DNA of 64,000 nucleotides from Oscillospiraceae bacterium. Its GTDB lineage: Bacteria; Bacillota; Clostridia; Oscillospirales; Acutalibacteraceae. The notes below the pieces were generated by a model, which had not been told where the DNA came from, searched no databases, and saw only the letters and a list, made by a program, of their open reading frames with translations. A program made the position numbers and the translations under genes. Below, piece after piece: positions 13,890 to 27,740 of this stretch. The stretch spans positions 248,001 through 312,000 of the forward strand of contig SVOT01000001.1 of NCBI GenBank assembly GCA_015066225.1, given 5' to 3'. Each line of letters opens with the position of its first letter. Position 1 is the stretch's first letter.

Positions 13890-15683
13890 TCAATATTTAT
13901 CTTTAATTTTTAAACCAGTTTTATCATACGAGCTCTTATACGTATCATATTTACTAGCTACTACAGTATATGTGTATGTTTTACCTTTCTTGGCAGTTTT
14001 ATCAGTATAAGAAACTTTAGAACCACCCTCAATAGTCTTTAGTTTAACCCACTCACCGGAACCCGTTTTTCGATAAACGATGTACGCATCAGCACCTGTA
14101 ACTTTTTTCCAAGTCAATTTCACACCGCTTTTAGTTGAAGTTACGGAAGAAAGCTTGGGGTTACTTAATCTAACAATGCCGGGGGCGCCTCCACCGACAT
14201 CACCCGACAGATACGAGTCATTGTACGCTTTAATTTTATAATAATATTTTGTACCGGATTTAACATTCTTGTCAACATAACTAAACGTTTTATTACCATC
14301 AATTCGTTTAATTTTTTCCCATTTGCCAACGGTTTCGCTAAATCTATATATATAGTATCGATCAGCATAACCAACTTTTTGCCAAGATATCTTAATGCCA
14401 CTAGCTGTATTAGCAACATTTTTTATTTTAGGCATTGAAACAAATTTAATTGTTAAACGTTCCCCATTTGAAGCACCAACACCGGCTTCGTTTATAGCAC
14501 GAACAGTATATTTATATTTAACATTATTCTTAACTGAAACATCATAATAAAATACATTATCCGCAACACCAATAACAGTCCACTCGTCTTCACCGCTAGC
14601 CATTCGATAAACACGGTATGCATCAGCACCAGATACCGCTTTCCAAGTAAGTGAAATACCGTTTTGTGTGTTTTCGATCTTTTTCATTGTAACCTTAGAT
14701 GGCTTTTTCTGTGCAGTTACTTTATAGCTAAAAATATCACCGCAAACAGTACACCTATCATAAGTAATGCCACATGTATTAACAGATGCTACAGAGTGTT
14801 TAACAGTTTCAATCGAATGAGTATGCTCAGTAATAGGAGTAAAAGATAATCCATCTTCTTCGGCAAAACTTTGAGCAGCAGAGCCGACTTCACCATAGAT
14901 TTTACCACTTAATGCCTGTACACCAAACTCACAGGTATTTGCCGGAATATACATAGCGGGAACAACTGACATTGCACACGAGCCAATTCGCTTTAACGTA
15001 GAAGGCAAGTGAATACCTGTCAATTTACAACCAACAAACGCCTCTTCGCCTATTGATTCAACACCTTCGGGAATGTAGATATGACTAAGTTTACTACAAC
15101 CATAGAATGTAAAAGCATGAATATCTTTGATTGAATTTGGTAAAACCACTGCCTTCAAGGACTTGCAGCCTCTGAACGCCCCTTCTGCAATACTCTTTGT
15201 ATCCTCTTTAATTTGGTAATTACCGGAGATGCAAGTATCAGCCTTAAGAAAATGCTTACTGACATATAAGACATCACTAACCCAATTAGCTTTGTCTTTA
15301 TAATATGCAGTATTATTAAATGCCGTTGAATGAATATACTCCACGTAATCTGATATAGATATTTTGGAAAGTTTTGAGCACGCACCAAAAGCATATTCAC
15401 CAATTTTTTTAATATTGGAATAGATTTTTACAGAAGTAATCTTAGTGCAATCCCAAAAAGCTCTGTAACCTATTTCTTTAACAGGCAAACCGCCAAATTC
15501 TTTTGGAATTTTCACAGTACCCTTTATTCCCGGAATTGCGTCAACAATAATATAATAGCTTTTATCAAGTGACAATTCGTAATAAAAAGTACCATCATTT
15601 TCAGCAGCCGCATTTACAGGTACACATAAAATGGCGGAACTGAACAGCAAAAGAACAAGAAATAAAGACATAATTTTTTTCAT
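13890..15683 (-). CDS. Secreted BspA-type leucine-rich-repeat protein with FN3 domains
   Basis: The start is ATG 15683 behind GGAGG (15695-15691); the frame is open further upstream but without a signal. 597 residues. Signal peptide at 1-26 (MKKIMSLFLVLLLFSSAILC). Residues about 40-280 hold LRR_5 repeats of the kind CSKLSHIYIPEGVESIGEEAF and CKSLKAVVLPNSI. A short CxxC segment (CGITYDRCTVCG) follows. Three FN3-like domains (about 85-90 residues each) start with LTWKAVSGADAYRVYR, ISWQKVGYADRYYIYR and LTWKKVTGADAYIVYR. No sortase motif or membrane anchor is seen. Such proteins are common at the surface of gut Firmicutes and are thought to bind hosts or polymers; the ligand is unknown. Confidence 0.88.
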   Translation of the reverse strand: MKKIMSLFLVLLLFSSAILCVPVNAAAENDGTFYYELSLDKSYYIIVDAIPGIKGTVKIPKEFGGLPVKEIGYRAFWDCTKITSVKIYSNIKKIGEYAFGACSKLSKISISDYVEYIHSTAFNNTAYYKDKANWVSDVLYVSKHFLKADTCISGNYQIKEDTKSIAEGAFRGCKSLKAVVLPNSIKDIHAFTFYGCSKLSHIYIPEGVESIGEEAFVGCKLTGIHLPSTLKRIGSCAMSVVPAMYIPANTCEFGVQALSGKIYGEVGSAAQSFAEEDGLSFTPITEHTHSIETVKHSVASVNTCGITYDRCTVCGDIFSYKVTAQKKPSKVTMKKIENTQNGISLTWKAVSGADAYRVYRMASGEDEWTVIGVADNVFYYDVSVKNNVKYKYTVRAINEAGVGASNGERLTIKFVSMPKIKNVANTASGIKISWQKVGYADRYYIYRFSETVGKWEKIKRIDGNKTFSYVDKNVKSGTKYYYKIKAYNDSYLSGDVGGGAPGIVRLSNPKLSSVTSTKSGVKLTWKKVTGADAYIVYRKTGSGEWVKLKTIEGGSKVSYTDKTAKKGKTYTYTVVASKYDTYKSSYDKTGLKIKDKY

Positions 15684-15702
15684 ATAAATCCCTCCTAATG
15701 CT

Positions 15703-15731
15703 AAGATAACACAACATAAAGACTTATTCAA
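15703..15731 (-). promoter_or_regulatory. Probable promoter of the LRR/FN3 gene
   Basis: On the minus strand TTGAAT (15731-15726) and TATCTT (15708-15703) with a 17-bp spacer, 20 bp before the ATG at 15683. Confidence 0.5.
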
Positions 15732-15805
15732 TGATAAATAATACAAATTCATATAATAATATTTAGTATTTCATGACAAAATCGGACGAAAAAGCAAATT
15801 AACTA

Positions 15806-19936: not shown

Positions 19937-20224
19937 TTGGCTGATACTCAGGCAAGTTTCCTTACCTACAAGGGCAAACCCCTTGTTCGCAAAGGTAACA
20001 CAATTTACTACGGTGATATTAACGACCCCTACGTTACTTTGCTTTCAGTTGTTGAATCCCACGAGGTTCACGGCGTTAAGATTGCAGACAAGGTAAAGGT
20101 TCAGCTCGTTAATACAAGGGAAGCAAATCCCCTCGCAGCTATCGAAAAAAGTTCCGACAAAAACGGAATGTATGCTGCAATTGAAATCGCTTCAATCTGG
20201 CTTGAAAGAGCGTTAAAAGCGTAA
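19937..20224 (+). CDS. Small conserved protein of unknown function
   Basis: 95 residues with a TTG start behind AAGGAG, 13 nt after ireB. The sequence (LTYKGKPLVRKGNTIYYGD at the start, NGMYAAIEIASIWLERALKA at the end) resembles a small soluble protein I have seen in other Ruminococcaceae and Lachnospiraceae next to ireB; I cannot name a family. It has no membrane segment, no signal and no catalytic motif. A beta-rich N-terminal half and a helical C-terminus are suggested. Coexpression with ireB is likely; a terminator follows. Confidence 0.75.
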   Translation: MADTQASFLTYKGKPLVRKGNTIYYGDINDPYVTLLSVVESHEVHGVKIADKVKVQLVNTREANPLAAIEKSSDKNGMYAAIEIASIWLERALKA

Positions 20225-20230
20225 AAAATT

Positions 20231-20264
20231 ACTCACTCAACCAAACGGTTGAGTGAGTTTTTTT
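20231..20264. terminator. Terminator after the ireB operon
   Basis: ACTCACTCAACC (20231-20242) pairs with GGTTGAGTGAGT (20247-20258), followed by a long T-run. It separates the operon from the convergent regulator gene. Confidence 0.92.
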
Positions 20265-20268
20265 TATC

Positions 20269-21345
20269 TTATTTATTAACTGATATTTTATTTGCTATTT
20301 CTAAAAGCTGTTTTCTTGAAGATACACCCAATTTTCCATATATATTTTTATTATGGTATTTAAGGGTGTTTTCTTTTATATTCATTTTAGAAAGAACATC
20401 CTTTGTTCCGTCACCTTCAACATATAAATCAAATATCATTTTCTCGGTAGCAGTTAATGTAGAAATCCCCTTTTCAAAAAGTTCAATTCTCTCTGAATCT
20501 TCTTCATTAATAATATTTTGTTCTTCCTGAACAAAAGCAACCTCTGCAACAGACCTTGAAATAATATTATCAGTTACGCTTGGAATTTCATTTTTCTTAG
20601 CTTCATCCTGAATGAGAAAGTTCACTCCCAAAAGGAATAATTCGCTGATTATATATGAAATTGAAAGCATTTCAAAGCCAAAATCAACAAATTGTTCAAG
20701 AAGCCAAACACCGATATTAACAAGAACAGCAAAAGCAATTATTATAGCCTGAGCACTTGAAGAAACCTTTTTCTTAACAGGGGTATAAATAATAATACCG
20801 ACCATTGAAGCAAAATATGTAAAGAGATAGATATAATAGCTTAAATGCCAAGGCCCATAAACTTTATTAAGAACAGAAACTCCGTTAACAACACCAAGAG
20901 AAACTTCTTTATAATATAAATCAAGAATACCGGGACTGGCAGCAATCAAAAATATAAGAACACCGACAACCAAAAGCAAATACGGTAATGCTTTATTATA
21001 TTTCAGTTTAGTTGCTTTAGCAATAATCATAAGCATTGCAATCGGCAAGAATACTGAGCCCAAATATGAGACTCTGTTTGCCATTAGTGCAGTCTGGAGA
21101 GTATCAGAAACCGACAGACACAAATAACCTACATTAACTATAAATACGCAGGAAAACAATACAACAAACCATAGTTCTCTCTTTTTTATTACGAGGAAAT
21201 AACCAAGCAATAACACAAACGAAATTGTAGCGGTTGCAATATAAACTCCTATAAGACTTGCTGTTTTCTCACCGGTATTAACACAACCGCTGAAACTTAA
21301 TACTATTAAAAATAAAGAAATCAAACCGAAAATTGACTTTTTCAT
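20269..21345 (-). CDS. Membrane-bound regulator: 7TM sensor region with LuxR-type HTH
   Basis: The start is ATG 21345: GGAG (21356-21353) is correctly spaced for it, while an upstream TTG at 21357 would overlap that site. 358 residues. After a signal- or lipoprotein-like N-terminus (LSFSGC), there are about seven to eight membrane segments up to residue 245, like the 7TM region that precedes histidine kinases. No kinase domain follows. Instead a linker of about 40 acidic residues leads to a LuxR/GerE HTH (about 290-350: LTATEKMIFDLYVEG, NTLKYHNKNIYGKLGVSSR). It is therefore a one-component membrane-tethered regulator. It lies divergent from the giant Cys-repeat gene, whose upstream region carries repeated TCCCACACT sites, the likely operators. 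Confidence 0.85.
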   Translation of the reverse strand: MKKSIFGLISLFLIVLSFSGCVNTGEKTASLIGVYIATATISFVLLLGYFLVIKKRELWFVVLFSCVFIVNVGYLCLSVSDTLQTALMANRVSYLGSVFLPIAMLMIIAKATKLKYNKALPYLLLVVGVLIFLIAASPGILDLYYKEVSLGVVNGVSVLNKVYGPWHLSYYIYLFTYFASMVGIIIYTPVKKKVSSSAQAIIIAFAVLVNIGVWLLEQFVDFGFEMLSISYIISELFLLGVNFLIQDEAKKNEIPSVTDNIISRSVAEVAFVQEEQNIINEEDSERIELFEKGISTLTATEKMIFDLYVEGDGTKDVLSKMNIKENTLKYHNKNIYGKLGVSSRKQLLEIANKISVNK

Positions 21346-21377
21346 AACGCACTCCAATCTGACACCAAAATGGTGCT

Positions 21378-21452
21378 TCCCACACTTTTTCCCACACTAA
21401 TTTTAAAGAAAACACTAATTTCCCACACTTTTTATTACGGTAAGTGTGGGGA
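21378..21452. promoter_or_regulatory. Repeated TCCCACACT operator sites
   Basis: Three direct copies of TCCCACACT lie at 21378-21386, 21390-21398 and 21421-21429, and an inverted copy, AGTGTGGGGA, at 21443-21452. The last two form a dyad with centres about 22 bp apart, two helical turns. They lie between the regulator gene and the Cys-repeat gene. LuxR-type proteins bind such dyads; that this regulator does so is inferred from position. Confidence 0.6.
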
Positions 21453-21477
21453 TTTTACTGTTAATATAAATTATAAT
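21443..21477 (+). promoter_or_regulatory. Possible activator-dependent promoter of the Cys-repeat gene
   Basis: TATAAT at 21472-21477 has no TTGACA-like element 17 bp upstream. Instead the operator half-site AGTGTGGGGA (21443-21452) occupies the -35 region, as at promoters that need an activator. The 5' leader would be about 245 nt long. Confidence 0.4.
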
Positions 21478-21481
21478 AATT

Positions 21482-21728
21482 TTGTGGGATAATAAGAAAG
21501 ATATAAAACCTGCATTAAAGTTGCTAAAACTTACAAGGGTATCTTTGTTACAAAGGATTGTCAGTCCTGTGATGCTCTGCGTGGGAGTGCCAATGAACAC
21601 GCAGGCCGCCCTACACCAAAATTATAACATAATGCTTAATAAGTGTCAACGAACTAAATTTCTTGTTTAATGAAAAATTACTTATTAATTGACTATGTTA
21701 TTAACTGTTCTCAAAAGGAGTGTGTTTT
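21482..21728 (+). other. Long leader with several hairpins before the Cys-repeat gene
   Basis: About 245 nt without a convincing gene. Successive short inverted repeats can be seen: AAGTT/AACTT at about 21519-21533, CTTTG/CAAAG at about 21543-21556, AGGA/TCCT at about 21559-21573, and CTGCGTG/CACGCAG at about 21576-21603. I do not recognise a known riboswitch class. It may be a structured leader, a small RNA or a remnant of a repeat. The gene's ribosome site AAAGGAG is at 21714-21720. Confidence 0.35.
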
Positions 21729-24700
21729 ATGAGCAAGTATATGAAAGGCTTTAAAAAGGTTGCAAGCATTGTCTTATCCATTATGATTATTTTTGGATAC
21801 AATCTATCTCCTATCTTCTCAATCAATGACCATAGTCACGATGACCATAGTCACGATGAGCATAGTGGTGATTCAGCTTTTATGATAACTGCAAATGCAT
21901 GGGAAGAAGAAGCTAATTGTGAGCATTGCGGGGGCTTCATCGGTGATTCATGGATATGCTCAGGAGGCGAGCATTGCGGTGAAGATAGCGACCGAACCGA
22001 TTGCTACGAAGCCTGGCATTGTGCTGATTGCGGTGACTGTATGAATAATGAGGATGATTTATGCGATGAATGCGGCAAATGTCTTGAAACGTGTTGCGAT
22101 TGTGACAACAAATGCGAGAACTGCGGAGAAAAATCAAACGAGCTCTGCGAGGGCTGTTGGGAAGTATGCTCAGAATGTGCTCCGGATGAGCTTTGCGCAG
22201 ATTGCGGTGTTATGTGCAGCAATTGTATAGAATCTGTTCTCGGCTGGTGTGACACCTGCAAGCTGGGTGGCTGTTGCACTTATATTTGCGAAGGCTGTGG
22301 CAATTCCTGCGAAAACTGTGCATATTTCTGTGAAGACTGCGGACTTTGTATAGATAATGAATGCTGTGAATGTGACGATAAATGCGGTGGCTGTGGCGCA
22401 AAAACCGACAACATCTGCGAGGACTGCGGAAATCTATGCTCTGAATGTGCGCCTGAAAAAATCTGTCAGGATTGTGGCAAAATTTGTGCCGATTGTGCTT
22501 CTGCTTTCTGCGAAAACTGTTGCATTGGTTCTTGTTGTGCTTTAGTCTGCGAGGGCTGTGAGGGCTCTTGCGAGAATTGTGAGTATGTTTGTGGCACCTG
22601 CGGAGCTAAATGTTACGAATGTACAGATTGGATATGTGAAAAATGTGATAAATGTCCCGATTGCGTCGGCGACGATGATTTCTGCAACAATTGTTACACA
22701 TGTGGAGCATGTGCGGAAATTTGTATCTGCGGCGAGGGCTGTTCAGAATGTGCAACTCTCTGCGATGGCTGCGGAGAGGTCTGCACTAACTGTGAATCAG
22801 TTCCATTGTGTGGTAGCTGTGGTGAATATTGTGAAAATTGTGCAGAAGCAAATGGCATATGGTGTGGAAATTGTGGCACCTGTGGTGCATGCGCAATAAT
22901 TTGTGATTGCGGTGGCGGTTGCGATAATTGCACAGCCATCTGTCCAGGCTGTGCTGAGCAATGCGAAAGCTGTACAGGTGACATCTGCGCAAGCTGTGGT
23001 TATTGCATTGGCTGTGTTGGTGATAATGGATGGTGTGCTAACTGCAACTTGTGTGGCGATTGTGCAATAATATGTATTTGTGGCGAGGGATGTAACGAGT
23101 GCACAAGCGTATGTCCTGAGTGTAACGAGAAATGTGTTAATTGTGAGCCTGAAAGCATTTGCGGAAGCTGTAGCGTATGCGCTGACTGCGTTGGTGGTGA
23201 AGGTAATTTCTGCACCAGCTGTGAAACCTGTATTAACTGTACAGATTATATCTGTTCTTGTGGCAATGGTTGCTCCGAATGTACTGATATCTGTCCTGAA
23301 TGTGCTGAACAATGTGCTAATTGCACCGGTGACCTTTGCGCTTACTGTGGTAAATGTATAGATTGTGTTGGCGATGCAGGTTGGTGCGATAACTGTGATG
23401 TTTGCGGAAATTGTGTAGAAAATATTTGCTACAATGGTGATGGTTGCTCTGAATGTGCAATTGTCTGCCCTGCTTGTAACGAGCACTGTGATAACTGTTA
23501 TGAGGATTTCTGCGGTGGTTGTAATACCTGCAAGGATTGCGGCGAATCAAGCGGATGGTGTAACGAATGCAATAACTGCGGTGAATGTGTTGAAGCTATC
23601 TGTTATTGTGGTAACGGTTGCTCTGATTGTGCAACAATATGTCCTGACTGTAACGAGAAATGTACAAACTGCGCTGATACTGATATCTGTGGCGGATGTA
23701 ACAAATGCGTTGACTGCATCGGCGGGGAAGATTTATTCTGCAGTAACTGTGAAACCTGCTACCAATGTACAGATTATGTTTGTCCTTGTGGCAATGGTTG
23801 TAGTGCTTGTGCTATAGTTTGCTCCGAATGTGGTGAGCATTGCGATAATTGTTATGATAACTTCTGCGGAGGTTGTGATACCTGTAAGGATTGTGGTGAA
23901 GGTAACGGTTGGTGCGACAACTGCGATAACTGCGGTAACTGTGTAGAAACCATTTGTTACTGTGGTAGCGGTTGTTCGGACTGTACCGATGTCTGCCCTG
24001 AATGTGCCGAACAATGCGAAAACTGTACAGGTGCCCTTTGCTCACATTGTAGAATTTGTGTGGACTGTGCCGGTAGTAATGGTTGGTGCAGTAACTGTAA
24101 TAACTGTGGTGAGTGTGTACAATTATGTTCCTGCGGAGAAGGTTGCATTGAATGTACTGAAATTTGCGAGGAATGTGGTGAAAGCTGTGAAAACTGCTCA
24201 TATTTCTGTCCCGACTGCGGTATCTGTAAGGATTGTGCTGAAGCAAACGGTGGTTTATGTACATACTGTGACCTTTGTTACACCTGTGCAAAAGATAATG
24301 TAGGCTTTTGCGAAAACTGCGGTGCTTGCGGCGGTTGTGTAACACTCTGTGATACCTGTGGCGAAGCTTGTGAAGAATGTACTGAAATCTGTCCTGATTG
24401 CGGTGGCAACTGTTCGTCTTGCTACTCCGATATTAGCTGTGTAGATTGTGGAAAATGCTTTGACTGCGCTGAAGAGGGTAACGGTTTCTGCGAAAGCTGT
24501 ATGCTTTGCTCTGACTGTACAATAGTTTGTCAGGGATGTGGTGAAGGATGCGAAAACTGTGTTCAGCTCTGTCCCCTCTGCCGTGAACAATGCGAATTAT
24601 GTGTAACTGGCGCTTTCTGCGAGGATTGTGGAATTTGTCAGAACTGTGCATCCGGTCTCTGGTGTGACGATTGCAACCACTGTGGCACTTGCTATGACCT

Positions 24701-26348
24701 TTGTTTCGGATGCGGTAAGTGTTCTGATTGCGCAGTAATATGCGAAGAATGTGACGCACATTGTGATAATTGTTCCGTAATTTGCGATACCTGTGGTTTA
24801 TGCGAGGAATGTTGTTCATCAAAGAGTGAATGTGTAGACGGTATGTGCGTTGAAGACCCTGAATATGAGCATCATTTCTGCTTTGATTGTGGACAATGCT
24901 TCTGCTTAAGTGACGACTGTGATATGTGTTACGCTTTCGATGAATACCGTTGCTCAAGCTGCTGTAATATGGCAATGAACAGTCTCGGTTGCTATTGCGG
25001 AAGATGTATCAGTGACCCAGATTTAGAAGAGCATCTCAGAACCGAGCATGGAGATAATTTTGAATATCACACAGCGGTACCCGTTGTTGAATGGAGCTAT
25101 GACGAGGATTATCATTGGAAGGATTGCAGATTCTGTGATGCGGACGAACACAAAACTTCAGGGAATACACACTATTTTAACGACTATATGATTTGTGAAA
25201 TCTGCGGTTTTGTTGGGGAAATGGGACCGTCAATAGATGGTGTTGTACATAGCTTTGGCGATGAATATACCGGAATTGTTATTGAGCTTTTCGACGGAAG
25301 CTCTGATGAACCTATCAAAACATTAACAATTTACGGCACTACTGCTACTTTCTTAATTAAGGACATTGACAGTGGAGCTTATACATTAAAAGTTACCAAG
25401 GACGGTCACACTGTCAGAACTTATAACATAACAATTGAAGATTCAACAACCGAATTAAATATTGACCTCTATGAAACAGGCGATGTTAATATGGACGGCG
25501 AATTGGATATTCTTGATTATCAGCAGATAGTTAATGCTGCCTTAAACGGTGACACTTCACCTGATGATACAAGTATAGACGATGCTTATATGCTTGCTCT
25601 TTGCGACTATGACGCAGATGGATATATTGATGTTATTGACTGCGCTTTGGTTGCAAGATTAATTGAGGATGACATTTCAGCTCAATATGATTCTATCGAA
25701 ATTACAGGTGTCGCCTCTCCTGTTGCTAACGGATTACCTTCTTATAAAGCAACACTTGATGATTCCAAATATGAAATCTATGATGAAGATTTCGGTTATA
25801 TTTATAACGGTGTTACTTGGTATGATTTGACTGATGATACTAACTTAGGTAAAGATGATAAGTTTACTCCAGGTCATTCTTATAAAGTTACTGTGGAAGT
25901 TATCCCATCAAATAATGGCGAATGGAATCTGAAATACGCAACAATTAACGGAAAAACTGCAAAAGTTGAAGAAGCTGATGATTGCTATCTTATTTCATAC
26001 ACCTTTACTATTGAAGAAGGTGATGCTATTACAATCACAGGTTTAACAGAACCCGTTGCAGGTCAGTTACCATCTTATAAAGCAACACTTGATGATTCCA
26101 AATATGAAATCTATGATGAAGAATTCGGTTATATTTATAACGGTGTTACTTGGTATGATTTGACTGATGATACAAACTTAGATAAAAATGATGAGTTTAT
26201 TTCAGGTCATTCTTATAAAGTTACTGTGGAAGTTATCCCATCGAATGATGGCGAATGGAATCTTAAATATGCAACAATTAACGATAGCGCAGCCTTAGTT
26301 GAAGAAGCTGATGATTGCTATCTTGTTTCCTGTATATTCGATGCATAA
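21729..26348 (+). CDS. Giant secreted cysteine-repeat protein with dockerin-like module
   Basis: Start ATG 21729, 8 nt after AAAGGAG. 1539 residues. Signal peptide at about 1-31. A His/Asp-rich stretch (DHSHDDHSHDEH) follows at about 33-46. From residue about 63 to 1094 the protein is a run of CxxC knuckles; the best-ordered part repeats a unit of about 57 residues with 16 Cys (pattern like CGNGCSECTDICPEC, then LCAYCGKCIDC, then GWCDNCDVCGNC). By this density there are roughly 250-300 cysteines. Then come a HWKDCRFC...CEICG zinc-ribbon-like piece, a carboxypeptidase-regulatory-like beta domain (about 1175-1250), a dockerin-like pair of Ca-binding loops (GDVNMDGELDILDYQ, CDYDADGYIDVIDC; about 1252-1315) and two near-identical 111-residue modules. 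Likely a surface metal- or disulfide-rich protein. No function is known to me. Confidence 0.85.
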   Translation: MSKYMKGFKKVASIVLSIMIIFGYNLSPIFSINDHSHDDHSHDEHSGDSAFMITANAWEEEANCEHCGGFIGDSWICSGGEHCGEDSDRTDCYEAWHCADCGDCMNNEDDLCDECGKCLETCCDCDNKCENCGEKSNELCEGCWEVCSECAPDELCADCGVMCSNCIESVLGWCDTCKLGGCCTYICEGCGNSCENCAYFCEDCGLCIDNECCECDDKCGGCGAKTDNICEDCGNLCSECAPEKICQDCGKICADCASAFCENCCIGSCCALVCEGCEGSCENCEYVCGTCGAKCYECTDWICEKCDKCPDCVGDDDFCNNCYTCGACAEICICGEGCSECATLCDGCGEVCTNCESVPLCGSCGEYCENCAEANGIWCGNCGTCGACAIICDCGGGCDNCTAICPGCAEQCESCTGDICASCGYCIGCVGDNGWCANCNLCGDCAIICICGEGCNECTSVCPECNEKCVNCEPESICGSCSVCADCVGGEGNFCTSCETCINCTDYICSCGNGCSECTDICPECAEQCANCTGDLCAYCGKCIDCVGDAGWCDNCDVCGNCVENICYNGDGCSECAIVCPACNEHCDNCYEDFCGGCNTCKDCGESSGWCNECNNCGECVEAICYCGNGCSDCATICPDCNEKCTNCADTDICGGCNKCVDCIGGEDLFCSNCETCYQCTDYVCPCGNGCSACAIVCSECGEHCDNCYDNFCGGCDTCKDCGEGNGWCDNCDNCGNCVETICYCGSGCSDCTDVCPECAEQCENCTGALCSHCRICVDCAGSNGWCSNCNNCGECVQLCSCGEGCIECTEICEECGESCENCSYFCPDCGICKDCAEANGGLCTYCDLCYTCAKDNVGFCENCGACGGCVTLCDTCGEACEECTEICPDCGGNCSSCYSDISCVDCGKCFDCAEEGNGFCESCMLCSDCTIVCQGCGEGCENCVQLCPLCREQCELCVTGAFCEDCGICQNCASGLWCDDCNHCGTCYDLCFGCGKCSDCAVICEECDAHCDNCSVICDTCGLCEECCSSKSECVDGMCVEDPEYEHHFCFDCGQCFCLSDDCDMCYAFDEYRCSSCCNMAMNSLGCYCGRCISDPDLEEHLRTEHGDNFEYHTAVPVVEWSYDEDYHWKDCRFCDADEHKTSGNTHYFNDYMICEICGFVGEMGPSIDGVVHSFGDEYTGIVIELFDGSSDEPIKTLTIYGTTATFLIKDIDSGAYTLKVTKDGHTVRTYNITIEDSTTELNIDLYETGDVNMDGELDILDYQQIVNAALNGDTSPDDTSIDDAYMLALCDYDADGYIDVIDCALVARLIEDDISAQYDSIEITGVASPVANGLPSYKATLDDSKYEIYDEDFGYIYNGVTWYDLTDDTNLGKDDKFTPGHSYKVTVEVIPSNNGEWNLKYATINGKTAKVEEADDCYLISYTFTIEEGDAITITGLTEPVAGQLPSYKATLDDSKYEIYDEEFGYIYNGVTWYDLTDDTNLDKNDEFISGHSYKVTVEVIPSNDGEWNLKYATINDSAALVEEADDCYLVSCIFDA
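21915..25010 (+). repeat. Coding tandem repeats, about 171-nt unit, CxxC-rich
   Basis: Successive units begin ICICGEGC, ICDCGGGC, ICICGEGC, ICSCGNGC, ICYNGDGC, ICYCGNGC, VCPCGNGC, ICYCGSGC and LCSCGEGC, spaced by roughly 57 residues. Earlier and later units are more diverged and vary in length. Copies differ at many third positions, so this is not a recent perfect expansion. Confidence 0.8.
25741..26283 (+). repeat. Two near-identical 333-nt coding repeats
   Basis: The segment 25741-25950 recurs at 26074-26283, 333 nt (111 residues) apart, with few differences, even at silent positions. Each encodes LPSYKATLDDSKYEIYDE, then NGVTWYDLTDDTN and GHSYKVTVEVIPSN. The pattern suggests a recent duplication of a small beta-rich surface module. 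Confidence 0.85.
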
Positions 26349-26357
26349 ATAATGTTA

Positions 26358-26391
26358 AAACCCGTTCAGCAGATAAATGTTGAACGGGTTT
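26358..26391. terminator. Terminator between the Cys-repeat gene and the metallophosphoesterase
   Basis: AAACCCGTTCA (26358-26368) pairs with TGAACGGGTTT (26381-26391). It lies between convergent genes with T-rich sequence on both sides. Confidence 0.75.
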
Positions 26392-26409
26392 GTTATACTT
26401 TACTTTACT

Positions 26410-27294
26410 TTATTTTATTATTGTATAAATTAAATTGGGTCGGTCGAATATTCTTACAGGAGCAATACTGTTGCCTATTCCCCTGCTGACTACAAGGGTT
26501 GTTTCGTTTTCTTCATAAAGACCACTTGTATATTTCGGGAATAAGCCTTGGTCGGGTGCTATAAGACCTATGCCGAATAATCTTCCCTGACCGCCGTGGG
26601 CATGACCTGAATAAACCAAATCGAATTGATATTTTGAATAAATTTCAATCTGCTCGGGGTGATGGGCAAGAAGAATATTAAATTCATCAATATTTATTTC
26701 AAGAGCTGAACACAAGGAGTCGGTTGTAATCTTAACCTCGCTTGCAGAACCACAATGGAAATAGGGGTCATCAATACCAAAAATATTAATTTTCTCTTTA
26801 TTAGGTAAAGTGATTTCCGAGGAGTCACCTCTTAACACTTCAACACCTAAAGATTTTAAATCCTCAATCATTCCATCAAAAGCAGATTGATTTTCAATGC
26901 TGAGGTTACATTCGTGGTTACCTGTAACGTAATACACCGGGGCAATGTCAACAAGAGCGGTTGCAAAGCTGACACCCTTGTTTATGTCGGTTTTTCTACA
27001 GTCAATCAAATCACCTGTTATAACTATTATATCGGGTTTTTCTTTTTCAAGTGATGTAATAACTGCATCGTTAAGAAAACCGTTTTTTGTGTTGTGATAA
27101 TCGGAAACGTGAGCAATTTTATAACCCTTATCACCCGGTACTTTATCAGTACTAATTTCAAAATGCTCAACGCAAAGCGTTATATTTCCCCAGATTGTTA
27201 CAGCAACAAAAATAAGAACAAGCAAAATAACAGCACAAATTAACCTTTTGGTTAGCCTTCTCTTTTCCGGGAAAAAAGACGTGATTTTATTCAT
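26410..27294 (-). CDS. Membrane-anchored metallophosphoesterase
   Basis: 294 residues. One N-terminal membrane segment (residues about 19-40) precedes a calcineurin-like domain with its metal motifs in order: HVSDYHN (the usual DxH), ITGDLIDC (GDxxD), VTGNHEC (GNHE), and YSGHAHGGQ (GHxH). Proteins of this YkuE/YpbG-like shape are membrane phosphohydrolases; in Bacillus YkuE binds the cell wall. The substrate is unknown. Its start overlaps the rpiB stop by one base, so the two are coupled. Confidence 0.9.
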   Translation of the reverse strand: MNKITSFFPEKRRLTKRLICAVILLVLIFVAVTIWGNITLCVEHFEISTDKVPGDKGYKIAHVSDYHNTKNGFLNDAVITSLEKEKPDIIVITGDLIDCRKTDINKGVSFATALVDIAPVYYVTGNHECNLSIENQSAFDGMIEDLKSLGVEVLRGDSSEITLPNKEKINIFGIDDPYFHCGSASEVKITTDSLCSALEINIDEFNILLAHHPEQIEIYSKYQFDLVYSGHAHGGQGRLFGIGLIAPDQGLFPKYTSGLYEENETTLVVSRGIGNSIAPVRIFDRPNLIYTIIK

Positions 27295-27740
27295 CAGAGA
27301 ATTTCACCGTTTTCAATAGCATGAATCTGATCAACACGGCGCTGATGTCTGCCGCCCTCAAATTCTGTGTTAAGGAAAACGTCAACAAGCTCGCAGGCAA
27401 GTCCGCCACCGATAACTCTTGCCCCCATACACAAAACATTGGCGTCATTATGAAGCCTTGTGAACTTAGCACTGAAGTAATCGGAACAGCAAGCGGCTCT
27501 TATGCCTTTAACCTTGTTTGCCGCCATAGAAATGCCGATACCTGTTCCGCAACAAAGAACAGCCTTGTCGCACTCGCCGGCTGAAACCTTTAAACAAGCC
27601 TTCTGAGCAAAAGCCGCATAATCTACAGATGCTGTTGAATCAGCACCGCAATCAACAAAATCTATTCCTTTTTCAGTGAGATATTTTTTAATTTCCTCTT
27701 TAAGGGGGTAACCTGCGTGGTCAGAAGCAATAGCGATCAT
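27294..27740 (-). CDS. rpiB: Ribose-5-phosphate isomerase B
   Basis: 148 residues, standard for RpiB. IASDHAGYPLKEEIKKYL at the N-terminus, the catalytic Cys in VLCCGTGIGISMAANK, the RAA and HNDANVLCMGARVIG stretches, and a C-terminal FEGGRHQRRVDQI are all conserved. It interconverts ribulose-5-phosphate and ribose-5-phosphate in the non-oxidative pentose phosphate pathway. Lies 4 nt after tsaB in a minus-strand operon tsaE-tsaB-rpiB-phosphoesterase. Confidence 0.96.
   Translation of the reverse strand: MIAIASDHAGYPLKEEIKKYLTEKGIDFVDCGADSTASVDYAAFAQKACLKVSAGECDKAVLCCGTGIGISMAANKVKGIRAACCSDYFSAKFTRLHNDANVLCMGARVIGGGLACELVDVFLNTEFEGGRHQRRVDQIHAIENGEIL

Follow-up and report, generated by a model that had tools for sequence, protein, structure and literature searches.

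What kind of structure could a bacterium build outside the cell from a protein in which 284 of 1539 residues are cysteine, and what controls its gene? The question is raised by an open reading frame (ORF) at positions 21729..26348 on the forward strand of a 64,000-nucleotide stretch of an Oscillospiraceae bacterium (GenBank assembly GCA_015066225.1, contig SVOT01000001.1, positions 248,001 to 312,000), which we call the window and to whose numbering all unlabeled positions refer. The answer that we favor, holding its chances of being right and wrong to be about equal, is that the ORF encodes a secreted rod of metal-thiolate fingers, the metal most likely being zinc, which stands on the cell surface and has its own switch beside the gene.

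A giant CxxC-rich secreted protein

The ATG at 21729 is preceded by the ribosome-binding-like sequence AAAAGGAGTG, the frame has no internal stop, and a terminator-like hairpin with a T-rich tail lies 3' of the stop codon at 26358-26391. Approximately the first 31 residues (21729..21821, forward strand, as are all parts of the ORF) read by eye as a signal peptide with a basic start and a hydrophobic core, and nine aligned relatives begin alike. The cysteines are concentrated, 272 of the 284 being packed within 1017 residues. A hidden Markov model (HMM) of the repeat finds units of 57-60 residues, each with 16 Cys, arranged regularly solely across residues 303-1018 (22635..24782; 716 residues, 195 Cys), with a weaker unit match at residues 156-216. 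The unit can be divided into four smaller pieces, in many of which a hydrophobic residue precedes a CxxC and a spacer of two or three residues leads to another CxxC; one piece carries CxC. Residues 64-302 (21918..22634), the start of which aligns with the N-terminus of the relatives described below, and approximately residues 1019-1100 are Cys-rich yet irregular and outside the unit register; 61 Cys fall in residues 61-302. The observation of a giant CxxC-rich secreted ORF, made in the initial annotation of this DNA, is confirmed. Its estimate of about 1030 residues of 57-residue units proved right about the presence of a 16-Cys unit array and wrong about its extent, which is 716 residues with irregular flanks.

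The periodicity exceeds the mere Cys pattern, because the other residues repeat too when Cys positions are held fixed. At lags of 58, 117, 118 and 176 residues, which are the strongest lags and were picked beforehand, identity at non-Cys positions was 0.17-0.21, compared to 0.089 in sequences shuffled around the fixed Cys, and none of 500 shuffles was as high at any one of these lags. The units are about 30% identical to one another outside Cys (mean 0.30), and Tandem Repeats Finder detected no array of approximately 170 bases in the DNA of the ORF. The repeat is therefore old, and was neither collapsed nor invented by assembly. A broken frame or a repeat created by assembly had been raised as a possibility from the start; the frame is intact, and an artifact of assembly or slippage is ruled out by the missing DNA repeat together with the recurrence of units 1-8, in unchanged order, at two other loci.

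Outside the array, the protein has a modular organization. A His/Asp-rich tract, DHSHDDHSHDEH, follows the signal peptide (residues 34-45; 21828..21863). The array is followed by a conserved cap (residues 1019-1165; 24783..25223), 41-48% identical to relatives in alignment A1, with a Cys/His pattern ending HWxxCxxC...H...H...CxxCG. Residues 1166-1245 (25224..25463) form a beta-rich, carboxypeptidase-regulatory-like domain that scores 15.4 bits against Pfam CarboxypepD_reg, below the cut-off of 32.3, and gives a weak scaffoldin match in the PDB (E 0.013). Next is a type I dockerin (PF00404; residues 1251-1312; 25479..25664) with the two Ca-loop repeats GDVNMDGELD and CDYDADGYID, which passes narrowly in one of two scans, scoring 25.9 bits in the genome search (cut-off 22.9) and 19.6 in the whole-protein scan. 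The C-terminus consists of two modules spaced 111 residues apart, residues 1321-1423 (25689..25997) and 1432-1534 (26022..26330), which are 82% identical (84/103); the first has a weak Big_2 match below cut-off. Similar modules occur in other proteins of the genus that have no match to the Cys array. Both the dockerin-like loops and the duplicated modules had been anticipated from the sequence alone. A Pfam scan found no enzyme domain in the protein. A search for cohesins, proposed at the outset, was carried out on the organism's own genome (95% complete) and returned one match of 22.6 bits, below the cut-off of 24.1. The same genome has 20 dockerin matches, and a scaffold partner may be missing, too divergent or unassembled.

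A family with a conserved Cys-rich head

The protein is not a single unusual case but one member of a family of 51 loci. These loci were retrieved from named genome records with a profile of the cap (residues 1019-1170); an earlier single-sequence scan of genome contigs confirmed nothing, and the 51 loci came from the cap alignment. The Cys part matches no Pfam or NCBIfam model over cut-off, in line with the early impression that no described family has this layout. The open-access literature yielded no paper on this protein family, most subscription papers lying outside that search; the principle has a eukaryotic precedent, and no bacterial family of this kind was found in the literature searched.

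The usual family head is only about 350 amino acids long and dense in Cys, with 240-310 dense positions in 37 of the 51 members. Its Cys are at least 90% conserved at 60 of 69 positions, compared to 19 of 286 positions for other residues, and conserved His residues are interspersed with the Cys. Judged from sequence, this head is the common part of the family and is anchored by differing means. When 12 relatives were scanned with Pfam, a dockerin was over cut-off in three (L056, L057 and L100) and just below it in L086, SLH domains were present in three (L061, L088 and L093), choline-binding repeats were present in one (L059), and L055, L079, L089 and L097 had no attachment domain. Membrane-anchor-like and fn3-like ends were read by eye in other relatives.

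Long arrays occur in four members, namely the window protein, L055, in which a single exported protein has over 340 Cys, L056 and L100. All four have a His-rich tract, which is found in none of the 49 other rows, four of which (L065, L095, L096 and L103) lack the true start. Units 1-8 of the window protein each best match the same-numbered unit in L055 and L056, with non-Cys identities of 0.52-0.81, whereas units within the window protein average 0.30 against one another. Units 9-12 pair with later ones; the best partner of units 9 and 10 alike is unit 13 in L055 and unit 12 in L056. In L100 no such order is seen past unit 2. Over much of the array, internal order has thus been kept in three loci, and a defined rod suits these data better than an exchangeable sponge. 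We also considered a multihaem protein and found no sign of one, CxxCH being scarce (70 of 2882 CxxC motifs in a set of 53 family proteins).

Most of the loci are from metagenome assemblies titled Clostridia, Oscillospiraceae, Ruminococcaceae or Lachnospiraceae, many of which name a ruminant gut site, and one is titled Bacteroidaceae. Named strains are represented by Ruminococcus bicirculans 80/3, Pseudoruminococcus massiliensis Marseille-P3876, a species that NCBI assigns to Acutalibacteraceae, and Oscillibacter sp. ER4. Sampling by taxonomic rank gave a Cys-part match in 10 of 300 genomes (9 of 135 genera) for the taxonomic family, and a match in 22 of 394 genomes for the order, six of these better than 1e-10 and the rest mainly through the terminal HWxxC ribbon. 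Among 22 genomes of the genus, only the organism's own had a Cys-array match at E 1e-10, the remaining hits being to C-terminal modules or dockerins, and it alone matched at this threshold in the phylum sample (1 of 398). The phylum sample is thin and the limits of the family are unsettled, since loci titled Lachnospiraceae and Bacteroidaceae occur among the named records. Of 31 pattern matches in viral contigs, a search that did not extend to plasmids, none was confirmed as a relative that would point to a mobile or phage origin.

Two relatives have unusual gene structures. In the complete chromosome of R. bicirculans 80/3 (L087), the family ORF ends at 561 amino acids, far below its relatives, and may be a truncation or a pseudogene. 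In L036:2629-9502 (genome G153), the gene after that of the CxxC protein encodes a secreted protein of 1055 amino acids, whose last 25 residues are identical to those of the CxxC protein and form part of a dockerin.

A regulator, operator-like repeats and a leader RNA beside the gene

Three elements adjoin the gene that were not part of the initial annotation. The first is a divergently oriented regulator (20269..21357, reverse strand) with a lipobox-like start recognized by eye, a HisKA_7TM membrane part (PF16927, 67 bits) and a LuxR-type (GerE) end (PF00196, 44.8 bits), both domains being over cut-off; no kinase or receiver domain was found in it. A membrane-linked LuxR-type regulator, divergent or otherwise arranged, lies upstream in 26 of the 33 loci with 6 kb of DNA on that side, compared to 3 of 33 downstream, weak cases being counted (L086 scores 5e-20, and the regulator of L098 is 3.8 kb away). 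Among 50 usable loci, the regulator is divergent in 16, all or part of a three-gene set lies upstream in 16, one has another arrangement, seven have no regulator, and a further 10 without one have less than 6 kb of upstream DNA. The three-gene set comprises a HisKA_7TM protein, a second protein and a LuxR response regulator; it is incomplete in L082 and L105, which have the response regulator alone, and in L076, L077 and L083, which have the first two genes alone. Beyond the family itself, only regulator genes recur in more than five loci.

The two regulator types separate on opposite sides of one branch in a tree of the heads, with a single change and an SH-aLRT of 96 (25 labelled of 36 rows, quick method, window absent). 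This single change rules out repeated independent recruitment of the regulator. The linkage is therefore old and inherited, and the 26 of 33 loci are therefore not independent events.

Additional copies of regulators were observed. In L076, L077 and L083, where a HisKA_7TM-type gene and its partner lie upstream, a second regulator set is found about 3.6 kb downstream of the CxxC gene. The organism's own genome has two full regulator copies and one fragment. The second full copy (L048, C17:74000-86000) is divergent from a secreted ORF of 1354 amino acids without a CxxC array, after which comes, in another frame, an ORF of 519 amino acids with a dockerin; part of this stretch is masked.

The second element is a cluster of operator-like repeats in the intergenic sequence (21379..21451), with CCCACAC at 21379, 21391 and 21422 and the inverted form GTGTGGG at 21445. 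The words CCACACTT/AAGTGTGG are present in 10 of 14 such intergenic regions, with 24 sites where random stretches taken from these loci average 1.0, an excess that is overstated since the word was chosen from the same stretches and the random stretches include coding DNA.

The third element is a conserved leader RNA of the regulator (21531..21616, reverse strand), detected with models R1 and R2 and supported by covariation. It lies directly after a sigma-70-like promoter site, TTGACA and TATAAT with a spacing of 17 and 12 of 12 consensus matches (21621..21649, reverse strand). The RNA, which is also present in L149-L163, consists of GGGGCG, a hairpin with the loop UUCGUUGGCGCG, a variable hairpin and GGGGUACCCC. 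Standard pairs make up 92.8% of cells in 15 aligned copies, taken from 18 candidates, compared to 80.4% in shuffles, none of 500 being as high; the structure was drawn from the same sequences, which favors it. Seventeen alignment cells changed on both sides (0 of 500 shuffles), in 6 of 11 pairs (1 of 500), and the count of further pair types was unremarkable (83 of 500). Rfam 15 gave no match over gathering score in positions 20000-27500 of the window, in L081 8950-9320, or in L131-L137 and L139; the matches below that score (RsaJ, rli61, mir-67, CLRN1-AS1 and Thr_leader) are not credible.

The leader RNA is present in the window and in 7 of the 16 family loci with a divergent regulator, and in none of the 16 three-gene loci (15 searched directly, and L062 by way of L037, a contig of equal length). 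In the order sample it occurs in 14 of 394 genomes (17 matches). Downstream of it, in 16 loci including the window, are a 7TM-LuxR regulator in seven, a solute-binding lipoprotein in eight and neither in one; two of the lipoproteins were called by Pfam and the rest by a shared WHVYG-type motif, L160 being read by eye. In two operons tested, the gene after that of the lipoprotein encodes a protein with a LuxR-type end. Because 15 of the 16 loci have either the 7TM-LuxR regulator or the lipoprotein, the leader RNA seems to belong to membrane-linked LuxR regulators generally and not to CxxC proteins as such. Behind the same RNA, L144:5843-8984 and L142:6137-9153 encode an SBP_bac_8 lipoprotein and a membrane protein, recognized by eye, with a LuxR-type end. 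These operons lie opposite a large secreted protein, which has SLH domains in L142.

A proposed metal-thiolate rod and its alternatives

We propose that the 7TM receptor would sense a condition outside the cell and that the regulator would bind the CCCACAC repeats, switching on the giant gene. The protein would leave the cell unfolded via Sec, its thiols kept reduced by the anaerobic gut. Outside, it would fold as soft metal ions, most likely Zn2+, bind at many Cys4 and Cys/His sites built from neighboring CxxC knuckles. The small metal fingers would make up a stiff rod resistant to proteases, which the dockerin or, in relatives, other anchors would hold at the surface. The rod could coat the cell or act as an adhesive stalk and, as a by-product, store metal. 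The thiol state required for such folding is consistent with the absence of matches to DsbA or VKOR, two families of disulfide-forming enzymes, from all 12 carrier genomes checked, three of which are less than 90% complete; control genomes do match, and other oxidases were outside the search. Together with the conserved His among the Cys, this favors the option, mentioned in the initial annotation, that the thiols stay reduced and bind Zn.

Several findings weigh against this proposal. The structural model of the array has a pLDDT of 47, too low to define the fold, and structural and PDB matches are too weak for a fold assignment and may reflect Cys content alone. No zinc transporter or zinc regulator is among the recurrent neighbors. 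The sole cohesin match in the organism's own genome is below cut-off, and five of the 12 scanned relatives have no attachment domain over cut-off. On the side of the switch, 7 of the 33 loci with enough upstream DNA carry no such regulator, and 4 of the 14 intergenic regions are without the repeats.

An extracellular metal store or scavenger, in which the array soaks up Zn or Cu and hands it over in the manner of a secreted giant metallothionein, strikes us as unlikely. Such a role would fit the composition of the array, with 195 Cys in 716 residues and 120 Asp and Glu compared to 14 Lys and Arg, the restriction of the His-rich tract to long-array members, and the presence of the copper storage protein Csp3 among weak profile matches. 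It is harder to reconcile with the short and strongly constrained head of most members, which is more fold than sponge, with the positional identity kept by the array units, and with the lack of a metal transporter among recurrent neighbors.

A disulfide-linked rod or fiber, with CxxC pairs cross-linked within and between chains after export, appears less probable still. The cysteines are exported, and CxxC-rich surface proteins elsewhere are, according to PMC6341118, thought to form disulfides too. Disulfides are disfavored here because His is conserved, the His-rich tract is limited to long-array members, and none of the 12 genomes matches DsbA or VKOR, and the disulfide fiber offered in the initial annotation gained no support. 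One array unit has also lost a Cys (CYNGDGC), and the habitat is probably anaerobic, as the gut and rumen titles of relatives suggest.

A redox or electron-carrying polymer with Fe-S clusters outside the cell, another of the original suggestions, is very improbable: the Fe-S proteins FwdG and FwdF are among the weak matches and stretches such as CxxCGxCxxCC contain ferredoxin-type Cys spacing, but Fer4 profiles gave no match, either to the protein (E up to 10) or to any of 36 heads (E up to 1), and we know of no route for Fe-S assembly outside the cell.

Wider implications

The secreted metal-thiolate rod, if real, would be for bacteria what the zinc-bound CXXC coat is for Giardia. We know of no other bacterial CXXC surface coat, and the family would be the first. 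Zinc is contested in the gut, and if zinc-bound, these proteins could hold a large amount of it at the surface of the bacteria that live there. The linked receptor, operator-like repeats and leader RNA point to a switch, to the site where it probably binds and to what may be a new class of RNA. We speculate, as a long shot, that these elements belong to an undescribed surface regulon of gut Clostridia, in which an orphan, riboswitch-like leader RNA tunes a membrane-tethered LuxR receptor that turns on a single giant surface protein via CCCACAC operators, the surface protein in this branch being an extracellular zinc-finger rod. If this were true, the ligand of the RNA would signal the very external condition to which the rod is a response.

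Elsewhere in the window, 13890-15752 on the reverse strand encodes a BspA-type leucine-rich repeat protein with fn3-like domains, a probable surface protein.

Comparison with known systems

Five known systems share features with the locus. Metallothioneins, too, are more than a quarter Cys and poor in basic residues; the window protein differs in being secreted and in having hundreds of residues in ordered units, where an aromatic or aliphatic residue precedes many of the Cys, and at E up to 10 neither Pfam nor NCBIfam gave a metallothionein match. LIM and other treble-clef zinc fingers also have CxxC knuckles with linkers of two or three residues, and gave weak profile and structural matches; these were below significance, and the window protein is extracellular with Cys far beyond LIM. 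The type I dockerin, which passed its cut-off when the genome was searched, recalls cellulosomal proteins, from which the window protein differs in having no enzyme domain that could be found and one below-cut-off cohesin in its genome. The neighboring regulator has both domains of the HisKA_7TM and LuxR-type regulators over cut-off, but here they form one fusion protein, in which neither a kinase nor a receiver domain was found, and such regulators are repeatedly paired with giant surface proteins.

The closest resemblance is to the variant-specific surface proteins (VSPs; PF03302) of Giardia, which are also exported, very rich in CXXC and made by a gut-dwelling organism. In PMC6341118, VSPs are reported to bind zinc and resist proteases, and a CXXC-rich VSP becomes sensitive to trypsin with reducing agents or chelators, an effect reversed by metal. 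The window protein is bacterial, has dockerin or, in relatives, other bacterial anchors and an adjoining regulator of its own, and PF03302 is absent from its Pfam matches at E up to 10. By analogy, it may work like a Giardia VSP while standing outside that family by sequence.
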